From the NCBI RefSeq assembly GCF_029023725.1, contig NZ_CP119075.1:4211501-4275500 (forward strand): a DNA stretch of 64,000 bases, in the 5' to 3' direction. Of the stretch, positions 50,080 to 61,246 are shown piece by piece (the first letter of the stretch is position 1; each line of letters begins with the position of its first letter). Position numbers and translations under genes: made by a program. The stretch is from Synoicihabitans lomoniglobus. GTDB taxonomy: Bacteria; Verrucomicrobiota; Verrucomicrobiia; Opitutales; Opitutaceae. The notes beneath the pieces are model-generated. The model was not told where the DNA came from and ran no database searches. It saw only the letters and a list, made by a program, of their open reading frames with translations.

Positions 50080-51342
50080 TTGACTTTCCCGACCTCGTTA
50101 CGCGCGCTCAACTCTCGGAACTACCGGCTGTTCTTTGCCGGCCAGGGGTTTTCTTTGCTGGGCAACTGGATGACGCTCACCACGTCGGCCTGGTTGATCT
50201 ACGAACTGTCCAACAATGCGTTTCTGGTCGGCTTCCTGCCCTTCGCCAACCAGATCCCGGTGCTGCTCCTCGCGCCGCTCGGGGGCATTCTCGGCGACCG
50301 GCTTCCCCGTCAGCGCCTCATGTGGTGGCTCAATATCCTGTGCGCGGCGCAGGCCGCCACGCTCGCCATTCTCACGCTCACCGATGCCATTACCGTGCCG
50401 CGACTCCTCATGTTGGTGACCTTCCGCGGACTCATCAACGCGGCGGAGTTTCCCACCCGGCAGTCGTTCATCGTCGATCTCGTCGATCGCAAGGCAGACT
50501 TGCCCAACGCCATCGCCCTCAATTCGTCGCTCTTCAACTCGGCGCGTCTCATCGGTCCGGGCATCGCCGGCGTGCTCATCGCCACCGCCGGTCCCGGCGT
50601 CTGCTACCTGCTCGATGCGACGTCTTACGCGGCCATCCTCACCTCGCTTCTCGCCATGCGCGTCGTGCGACGCGGCCGGCGGTCCAAACGCAAGCGCGGC
50701 CATCCGCTCAGTGATCTGCGGGCCGGTATTGTTTATGCCAGCAAATCTCCGCTGCTGCGTCCGTCTTTGATTATGGTGCCACTGGTGGCGATGACAGGGT
50801 TTGCCGGCTCCACCCTTGCCCCGGTATTCGCCCGCGATGTTTACGGTGGCGACAGCACCACGCTCGGTTTCATGTTTTCCGCCGTGGGTGCCGGGGCTTT
50901 GGTGAGTGCGATCATTCTGGCCCGATTGCCGTCTCCCGATGGCATTGCCCACTGGATTGTGCGGGGGGCGTTTGCCATCGCCATCGGTCAGATCGGTTTC
51001 GCCCTCAGTCCCGCCTTGCCCATCGCACTCTGCTTTTTAGCGGCCACGGGCTGGGGCACGGTGCTCACGATGGCGGGCAACAACACCCTCGTCCAATCCC
51101 AGGTCGACGACGACAAACGCAGTCGGGTCATGGGTTTGTTTGCGATGGGTCAGGGGATGTTTCCCATCGGCAGCATCACGGTGGGGGCCGCCGCCGCCAG
51201 TTTCGGTCCGCGGCCCGCGGTGATCGTCGCCGGCATCGGCACCGCCCTCGCCGGCCTCATCTTCATCCGCTCCAGCGCCGCATTTCGCCAGGTCCGCCCC
51301 CCCCGGCGTCCGGCACCGCTGCCGTCCGACTCACAGATGTGA
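50080..51342 (+). CDS. MFS transporter (MFS_3/EntS-like)
   Basis: This 420-residue protein has about 10-12 membrane helices. The N-terminus (FPTSLRALNSRNYRLFFAGQ) and LLLAPLGGILGDRLPRQRL, the inter-helix 2-3 motif, match the EntS-like MFS_3 subfamily. Members export siderophores, drugs or other small molecules. The start is a TTG at 50080, giving a soluble N-terminus of about 16 residues; no ATG is better placed. It lies 120 bp after the receptor terminator, so it is a separate unit. The substrate is unknown. Confidence 0.87.
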   Translation: MTFPTSLRALNSRNYRLFFAGQGFSLLGNWMTLTTSAWLIYELSNNAFLVGFLPFANQIPVLLLAPLGGILGDRLPRQRLMWWLNILCAAQAATLAILTLTDAITVPRLLMLVTFRGLINAAEFPTRQSFIVDLVDRKADLPNAIALNSSLFNSARLIGPGIAGVLIATAGPGVCYLLDATSYAAILTSLLAMRVVRRGRRSKRKRGHPLSDLRAGIVYASKSPLLRPSLIMVPLVAMTGFAGSTLAPVFARDVYGGDSTTLGFMFSAVGAGALVSAIILARLPSPDGIAHWIVRGAFAIAIGQIGFALSPALPIALCFLAATGWGTVLTMAGNNTLVQSQVDDDKRSRVMGLFAMGQGMFPIGSITVGAAAASFGPRPAVIVAGIGTALAGLIFIRSSAAFRQVRPPRRPAPLPSDSQM

Positions 51343-51350
51343 AGCGCGGA

Positions 51351-51373
51351 AGTGTAACCATTATGGTTACACT
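51351..51373. repeat. Palindromic repeat element, intergenic copy
   Basis: AGTGTAACCAT and its exact reverse complement flank a single T, giving 11-bp perfect arms. The same 23-bp core occurs at 60615-60637 inside the DUF1365 gene. It starts 8 bp after the MFS stop codon, in the 97-bp gap before the convergent VUT gene. No T-tract follows, so it is not a typical terminator. Confidence 0.9.
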
Positions 51374-51439: not shown

Positions 51440-51973
51440 TCAGGCCGAGGCGCGGTCGGAGACAGGGCGATCCGACTCCCGTCCGCGCCAAAAGGCGGAG
51501 ACCGCTCCGACCAATGTTTTCACCACGATTTCGCCAAAGATGATTGAAAGGATCACGGTGGGCGGAAACCCCGCCACGCCGGCGAAGGCGACCACGTTGA
51601 AAAAGATCGAATCCAGCGGGATACTCACCGCGTTCGATGTCAGCACGCGGTGCCACCAGGACTTGGCGAGCAAACGCTGATAGACTTCCGTATCCGCCGT
51701 CTCGGCCAACACGATGGCAATGACCGATGCGAGAATGATACGCGGCGGCACCTGCCCGAGCACTGAGAGCAGCGCGCTCAGTGCCGCCGTGATCGCGATG
51801 ACCGTGTAGACAAAACGACGGCCCTTCGCGTGCATGCGATCACGCTGGGTGAACGTGAATCCAAACACGAACGTGCCCACCGCGACCTGCCCGAAAATCG
51901 GGAAGTGCAGAAACCAGGTCGCGGTCAGATTCGCGACCAACACGGCGACAATGTAAATGACGGCGGAACGCAT
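51440..51973 (-). CDS. VUT (YhhQ-like) family transporter
   Basis: From the ATG at 51973 this is a 177-residue protein with five to six membrane helices. It has VLVANLTATWFLHFPIFGQV, DTEVYQRL and SNAVSIPLDSIFFNVVAF, all features of the VUT/ACR YhhQ family, which includes queuosine-precursor importers. The final charged tail is not conserved. The substrate here is only inferred. It is convergent with the MFS gene. Confidence 0.82.
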   Translation of the reverse strand: MRSAVIYIVAVLVANLTATWFLHFPIFGQVAVGTFVFGFTFTQRDRMHAKGRRFVYTVIAITAALSALLSVLGQVPPRIILASVIAIVLAETADTEVYQRLLAKSWWHRVLTSNAVSIPLDSIFFNVVAFAGVAGFPPTVILSIIFGEIVVKTLVGAVSAFWRGRESDRPVSDRASA

Positions 51974-60388: not shown

Positions 60389-61246
60389 ATGCGCTCCCGG
60401 ATCTTCGAATGCCATGTCATGCACGCGCGTTTTTTGCCGCGGGTGCACCGGTTCGTCTACCGCCTGTTCATGCTGTCGGTCGATCTCGACGAACTCCCGC
60501 AACTCGATCGCGGCCTGCGTCTGTTTTCCGTCAATCGCGGCAACCTTTTCAGCCTGCGCGAGCGCGACTTCCTCCCCCTCACCGAACCGGCCCACAACGC
60601 CGCGCCTACGGGAGAGTGTAACCATTATGGTTACACTCTCGCCGACGCGCCGACGCTGAAGGAGCGCGTGTTGGCTTACTTGGAGGCCCATCAGGTCGAC
60701 CCGGGGGTCGGGGCCCGGGTCGAGCTGGTGACCTTGCCGCGGATGCTGGGGTATCGGTTCAATCCAGTGTCGTTCTACTACATCCGCAATGCCGCCGATG
60801 AACCCGTCGCCGCGATCTGCGAAGTGACCAATACGTTTCACGAGATGAAGCCGTATTTGCTTTCCGGTGACATGCTTACCTCGGCGGGATTTCGCCACCG
60901 CACGCCCAAATTCTTTTACGTCTCCCCGTTTTCCGACGTCGATGTCGCCTTCGATTTCAAACTGCGCGTGCCCACGGATCGACTGGCCGTGCAGATCGAC
61001 GATTACACTGGAGCCGACCGCACCCTCACCACCACGCTGGCGGGCCCGGCCCGCGCCTTCACCGATGGAGCGTTGGCACTCTTTTTAGTCAAATACCCCC
61101 TGCTCACGCTGCGGGTGATTTTTCTCATTCACTGGCACGCGATGCGGTTGTGGCTCAAGAAAGTGCCATGGTTTGCCAAGGCCGGCCGTGGGGCCGACCA
61201 ACGCGACCTCTACCGGCCGCACGCTTCGCTCAAGCGGGAGAAATAA
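60389..61246 (+). CDS. DUF1365 family protein carrying an in-frame palindromic insertion
   Basis: From the ATG at 60389 this is a 285-residue DUF1365 protein. It begins RSRIFECHVMHARFLPRVHRF and has YRFNPVSFYYIRN and EVTNTFHEMKPYLL as family segments. Two hydrophobic stretches lie near the C-terminus. The function is unknown, but it is usually found beside the FAD protein and cyclopropane synthase, as here. Residues 75-84 (GECNHYGYTL) are coded by a perfect 29-bp palindrome. This segment looks like an insertion relative to the family pattern. The start is fixed by the ATG after ACGAC; the frame open before it lies in the FAD gene. Confidence 0.87.
   Translation: MRSRIFECHVMHARFLPRVHRFVYRLFMLSVDLDELPQLDRGLRLFSVNRGNLFSLRERDFLPLTEPAHNAAPTGECNHYGYTLADAPTLKERVLAYLEAHQVDPGVGARVELVTLPRMLGYRFNPVSFYYIRNAADEPVAAICEVTNTFHEMKPYLLSGDMLTSAGFRHRTPKFFYVSPFSDVDVAFDFKLRVPTDRLAVQIDDYTGADRTLTTTLAGPARAFTDGALALFLVKYPLLTLRVIFLIHWHAMRLWLKKVPWFAKAGRGADQRDLYRPHASLKREK
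60612..60640. repeat. Palindromic repeat element, in-gene copy
   Basis: GAGAGTGTAACCAT and its exact reverse complement flank a single T, giving 14-bp perfect arms. The inner 23 bp are identical to 51351-51373. It lies within the DUF1365 gene and keeps the frame open. Confidence 0.92.

Follow-up and report, generated by a model that had tools for sequence, protein, structure and literature searches.

Species-spelled palindromes at inherited chromosomal places and a candidate HTH reader protein

A short palindrome recurs tens of times along the source genome of the DNA studied here, and related species carry it at many of the same chromosomal places, mostly in letters of their own. Many of these sites are therefore old, with the places kept and the letters mostly following the local spelling. 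We interpret the palindromes, at a probability of about 0.55, as dispersed binding sites of a co-evolving small HTH protein with a chromosome-wide role. Literature searches returned no description of the palindrome family or of its pairing with an HTH gene.

Palindrome copies in the window and the source genome

The analysis began with two copies in a window of 64,000 nt, meaning the whole stretch of DNA that was analyzed (Table 1). Re-reading of the window sequence confirmed the perfect arms of the in-gene copy, the identity of its inner 23 bp (AGTGTAACCATTATGGTTACACT, positions 60615-60637) to the intergenic copy and its coding, in frame, of residues 75-84 (GECNHYGYTL) of the DUF1365 protein, all as originally predicted. 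None of 100 dinucleotide-preserving shuffles of the window contained a match at up to three mismatches, and together with the reversed-pattern controls described below this rules out a chance origin.

Table 1 Palindrome copies and adjoining genes in the window
Feature	Position	Strand	Description
In-gene palindrome	60612..60640	.	GAGAGTGTAACCAT-T-ATGGTTACACTCTC, 14-bp arms around one T
Intergenic copy, same 23 bp	51351..51373	.	Between convergent genes
DUF1365 gene, host of in-gene copy	60389..61246	+	PF07103, E 5.8e-72, 285-aa protein
MFS gene, adjoining the 51351 copy	50080..51342	+	PF05977
Vut_1-type gene, other side of the 51351 copy	51440..51973	-	PF02592

The source genome (G000, 5.93 Mb, one contig) holds 42 exact copies of the 19-mer TGTAACCAT-N-ATGGTTACA, here called A-type, scattered along the whole chromosome. 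Their core is GTAACCATTATGGTTAC, and the 23-bp form is nearly fixed. Allowing up to three mismatches adds a single copy, located in a local array and altered in one arm letter; decayed A-type copies are thus rare (1/43). A second, B-type palindrome (GTCACCTATTAGGTGAC and kin) occurs in 20 copies, 12 of them listed and read; in some B-type palindromes, a position beside the TANTA centre is unpaired. Both types share a 17-bp frame, GTNAC-7 nt-GTNAC.

Small arrays occur in the source genome, for example five units at 90 bp and three at 124 bp. The five tandem 90-bp units (L016:3301-3683, G000 ~2648300-2648682) each join the palindrome to the 3' end of the gene preceding it, with the centre base flipped in one unit. 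A separate observation concerns a 2.77-kb inverted duplication of 95.8% identity (L323:2353-5123 and L330:36-2799; G000 ~470652-473422 and 2175635-2178398), whose segment end holds B-type palindrome pairs 344-345 bp apart; no HTH gene lies between the members of either pair, both being part of the duplicated segment. At L025:2023-2115 (G000 ~4684622-4684714), the palindrome may encode part of a signal peptide in a hydrophobic frame (MSLARLCRSVTIMVTLLAGLAWPVAA), the start codon being uncertain.

Distribution and spelling across relatives

Across 252 genomes of the bacterial family, representing 49 genera, the exact A-type 17-mer was found in five. The pattern TNACCATNATGGTNA was multicopy in G000 (42), G002 (2), G003 (9), G004 (55), G005 (15), G006 (7) and G131 (8) and occurred once in each of 35 further genomes, its reversed control giving single matches in 11 genomes. 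A further pattern, TAACCANNNTGGTTA, added G002 (26), G006 (39) and G007 (24) as well as six genomes from a different genus, each with 4-24 copies, against three copies at most for its control. Broadest of all was the B-type pattern GTNACNTANTANGTNAC, present in 139 of the 252 genomes and 34 of the 49 genera, where it reaches 124 copies; its reversed control matched once each in seven genomes. Copy number varies widely among near relatives, from 0 to tens within one genus, and G001 has no A-type copy.

Scanning contigs of species-level genomes with the A-type 19-mer yielded 18 stretches, three from one Verrucomicrobiota metagenome-assembled genome (MAG) and 15 representing single matches in other taxa. 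A phage link was considered and rejected: A-type matches appeared in three stretches of viral contigs, the three B-type patterns had no match in the viral scans and one viral scan revealed no relative of the HTH protein introduced below. We also observed a further palindrome, ATGTTCGTAATACGAACAT, common to two genera (L084:3496-3524 in G131 and L075:21-43 in G004), which is perhaps a third type.

Each genome tends to use one spelling. The source genome is spelled AGTGTAACC..., G004 mostly TTTGTCACC...GGTGACAAA, G003 and G005 TGTCACC...GGTGACA, G006 mostly AAGTAACC... and G131 mostly CAAAGTAACC.... Between species, letters change mostly symmetrically in the two arms, and hybrids with one changed arm occur. 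Beyond the core, the outer arms vary by copy, yet tend to pair: perfect extension in the source genome averaged 4.69 bp versus 3.51 bp with shuffled partners (reached by 0/500 shuffles) and, in 22 copies from relatives, 2.91 versus 1.25 bp (0/500), while the six G004 copies alone showed no excess (182/500). This control is not clean because an extension excess is seen too (6/500) among 17 unrelated matches, each occurring singly in other taxa or in viral contigs. Individual copies can have arms as long as 22-28 bp.

Inherited places

In the DUF1365 gene, an identical 17-mer occupies the same codons in G000, G004 and G006; it differs by one letter in G005, has degenerated in G003 and is absent from G001 and from 11 aligned homologues outside the genus, with linker length varying among homologues. 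The original prediction had been that of a small mobile palindrome able to land in genes without breaking them. Its general part stands, as the element is a dispersed repeat that is also found in relatives, lies mostly between genes and sits in frame in gene linkers, and neither the counts in the genome and its relatives nor the DUF1365 alignment refuted a mobile element. The DUF1365 copy itself, however, is no recent landing, since the same codons carry the 17-mer in G004 and G006.

Other places show inheritance through changing letters. In the exosortase gene, the linker joining the EpsH domain to DUF3485 carries a palindrome in six of eight species, with no more than one core pair unmatched and in five spellings (GTAACCATAATGGTTAC, GTCACCATAATGGTGAC, GTCACGTATTACGTGAC, GTAACGTAATACGTGAC and GTAACCTAATAGGTGAC); G006 is degenerate here, G001 has none and the encoded residues vary freely. 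The 51351 place is palindromic also in G003, G004 and G007, beside the MFS orthologue and each time locally spelled, giving three core spellings among the four species.

For a broader comparison, site clusters from eight relatives, covering part of each relative's sites, were searched for a neighbor orthologous to one at a G000 site (≥58% identity across ≥70 residues and no more than 1.2 kb away). Such a neighbor was found for 30 of 96 clusters, versus 1 of 96 with a background set of window ORFs about one-third as large; among the 30, L195 had been fetched as the DUF1365 orthologue and is therefore not independent, and in two instances a pair of clusters maps to a single G000 site. The remaining 66 clusters lacked a shared neighbor. 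Type was kept in 27 of the 30 orthologous pairs (22 A-A, 5 B-B). The three switches comprise two G000 A-type places that are B-type in G001, a genome without an A-type match, and one G000 B-type place that is A-type in G004. Outside this comparison, rsmE is a less clear-cut case, with a palindrome in the same linker in three of 18 genomes, each from a different genus (G131, G014 and G233), and none in 15; G131 has two in-frame palindromes within one rsmE gene. Linker 1 is about eight residues shorter in most relatives, and linker 2 of G233, with its palindrome, is no longer than in the others.

These data bear on a REP/RPE-like mobile hairpin, in which a transposase would spread a minimal palindrome, the HTH protein would be a regulator or accessory factor and old copies would be kept symmetric by hairpin self-correction or replacement. 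The two-thirds of relatives' clusters having no neighbor in common with G000 sites, the copy numbers from 0 to tens in one genus, the local arrays, the genome-specific outer letters with copy-wise pairing of outer arms and the in-frame copies in genes, including the two in rsmE of G131, are all in its favor. It leaves unexplained why inherited places with altered spelling are in excess; moreover, we found neither a transposase gene recurring at the sites nor a clean empty site, the palindrome-bearing G233 rsmE linker being of ordinary length, and very few G000 copies are decayed. We regard this alternative as doubtful, although far from negligible.

Placement relative to genes

Gene context was assessed for 46 G000 sites, namely all A-type and 12 of 20 B-type copies with neighbors closer than 200 bp counted once, using a home-made gene caller, for which reason start codons are approximate. 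Nine sites lie in genes, 19 between co-directional, eight between convergent and ten between divergent genes, where the null expectation is 87% coding DNA by length and, for intergenic DNA, 49% co-directional, 16% convergent and 36% divergent. Sites therefore avoid genes yet ignore gene orientation. Seven of the nine in-gene sites are internal, all in one phase and in unrelated genes. The other two, both B-type (L325:2346 and L331:2382), provide the called stop codon of the gene ahead of them.

An RNA hairpin or intrinsic terminator would fit the stem-loop shape and the many copies shortly past stop codons. We nevertheless rejected intrinsic termination and consider this explanation highly improbable, as a T-tract follows the stem in 0 of 42 A-type copies, including none at 51351, the window has no Rfam match, ten of 37 intergenic sites are divergent and seven sites are internal to genes.

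A candidate HTH reader protein

Clustering of ORFs around 156 site loci recovered, besides inherited neighbors, a 118-124-aa HTH protein in five genomes; in a smaller comparison confined to A-type loci, no gene was common to all neighborhoods. Over six cases, the protein measures 118-152 aa. The G000 gene (5615348-5615716, minus strand) lies outside the window and has one palindrome 15 bp past its stop codon and three ahead of its start. A palindrome in the local spelling stands 8-51 bp upstream of the HTH start in all six cases, and a second is located at, overlapping or after the stop in five, with none found in G003. Further cases were sought in 20 regions picked mostly for close groups of copies, a choice guided by expectation, namely that the palindrome pair of G110 brackets an HTH gene. 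The gene was present in one of the 20, from G110, which belongs to another genus and has the sole pair spaced 400-500 bp (483 bp), and was not found in the remaining 19. The G110 protein is 64% identical to that of G000 over 83 residues.

HTH genes linked to dusB (G000, G003, G005 and G110) pair with A-type palindromes, and those located elsewhere (G007 and the genome of L310) pair with B-type palindromes. In the helix following a PRQR motif, the residues are VG in G000 (GTAAC), IH in G003 and G005 (GTCAC), LQ in G110 (GTAAC), IY in G007 and LN in the L310 genome (both GTAACG). The possible correspondence between these residues and the palindrome letters is suggestive only. Pfam returned sub-threshold YdaS-type similarity for four of five HTH proteins and nothing for the fifth, NCBIfam gave nothing above its cut-off for the four scanned and a search of solved structures with one protein produced only a weak, unrelated match (E 0.22).

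From this genomic arrangement, the small HTH protein bracketed by the palindrome is the candidate that probably reads the sites. The original prediction had considered a regulator binding site less likely given the in-gene place. The data do not bear that argument out: old sites, those in genes included, stay palindromic under symmetric letter change, and locally spelled palindromes flank a small HTH gene; both observations favor a binding site. If the sites were operators of a single ordinary metabolic regulon, they would also be symmetric, have an HTH partner and include an operator-like place ahead of its gene. However, the neighboring genes seen are diverse and largely housekeeping, eight of 37 intergenic sites are convergent and a further seven sites are internal to genes, making a regulon of this kind very unlikely. 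As the sites are indifferent to gene orientation and extend into genes, a chromosome-wide role is likelier than a regulon.

Comparison with known systems

REP-like palindromes are usually ascribed to a transposase or left without explanation. Within the phylum, O. terrae is reported to be rich in GTAG REPs, some of them intragenic (Di Nocera and colleagues, PMC3733652). Our palindromes resemble REPs and BIMEs in being short, dispersed, clustered in places and partly in genes, and they differ in lacking a GTAG tag, in their perfect symmetry, in the absence of an adjacent Y1 transposase at the loci seen and in the bracketed HTH gene. GTAG occurs in none of the 84 14-bp arms in G000, and GTAG or CTAC lies beside two of 42 copies. 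None of the 18 Y1_Tnp matches in G000 is within 4.9 kb of an A-type copy, and neither the A-type core nor B-type palindromes occurred in 40 fetched Y1 loci (10 of 18 in G000 and 30 of 53 in eight relatives). An exception is G007, with two A-type-like copies ~0.8-0.9 kb from a Y1 ORF. All nine genomes checked carry Y1 transposase genes; one of them, G001, has no A-type copies. Membership in the GTAG-type REP/RAYT family was therefore rejected: the palindrome is many-copy, and neither the GTAG tag nor, at the loci seen, an element-flanked RAYT gene was found. Independently, a distinct GC-rich inverted repeat (AATGCCGAGCGGGAGCTCGGCGTTCCC, L217:580-650) follows a Y1 gene in G007 and looks like a REP belonging to that gene, and a perfect 56-bp inverted repeat lies near a Y1 transposase gene in G004 (L209:885-940).

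Rickettsia palindromic elements (PMC10969869) are units of ~150 bp that sit in frame in unrelated genes. The seven internal G000 sites recall this behavior; the palindromes described here differ from that account in their constant core of 17-23 bp and in having many places inherited in changed spelling.

MatS/MatP, SBS/SlmA and NBS/Noc each comprise tens of dispersed palindromic sites, partly in genes, for one DNA-binding protein. With their dispersed symmetric sites and indifference to gene orientation, they may be the nearest functional analogues; the motif here is another, the candidate partner is a small HTH protein of no recognised family and copy number is very variable. DNA uptake sequences likewise form dialects, with a dispersed motif in lineage-specific spellings that are thought to track a receptor. 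Unlike these, our elements are far fewer and palindromic, and a lone half-site (ATGGTTAC) outside palindromes occurs once in the window, giving no sign of uptake-sequence half-sites.

Discussion

Returning to the co-evolving HTH protein, we propose that a dimer would bind the 17-bp core at tens of sites along the chromosome as well as at its own gene, where the copy just ahead of the start codon would be operator-like and another would mark the gene end. As the specificity of the protein drifts, all copies would change letters together and symmetrically because one protein reads them all; a single reader with drifting specificity would thus give rise to a species' own spelling at inherited places. 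The role may lie in nucleoid structure or bridging, plus autoregulation. Such a dimeric reader would explain the fixed letters within a genome, the symmetric change, the inherited places, the indifference to orientation and the bracketed gene. Counting against it are the uneven copy number among near relatives, the 66 of 96 clusters without a shared neighbor, the three type switches, the sub-threshold or absent Pfam similarity and the missing palindrome after the G003 gene.

Protein binding alone does not account for outer arms that pair copy by copy, nor for how entire 17-23-bp sites are gained. Both would follow from the mobile hairpin. Copying or hairpin self-correction is probably involved. 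A bolder version, tentative but conceivable, is a so far undescribed, self-spreading two-part system for marking the chromosome, made up of the HTH protein and its gene-bracketing palindrome. The palindrome would be copied to tens of places and all copies would then be rewritten in concert, so that addresses are largely inherited but spelled in each species' own way. More than one such pair (A-type, B-type and perhaps a GTTCGTATTACGAAC type) could coexist per genome.

Here, the same palindrome can be traced at orthologous places through changing spellings, and its candidate reader sits between two copies. The co-evolution of a protein with tens of its sites is therefore directly testable. The palindrome is a likely ligand for an undescribed HTH protein family and could bring to light a system, extending across a bacterial family, that organises the chromosome or spreads sites.
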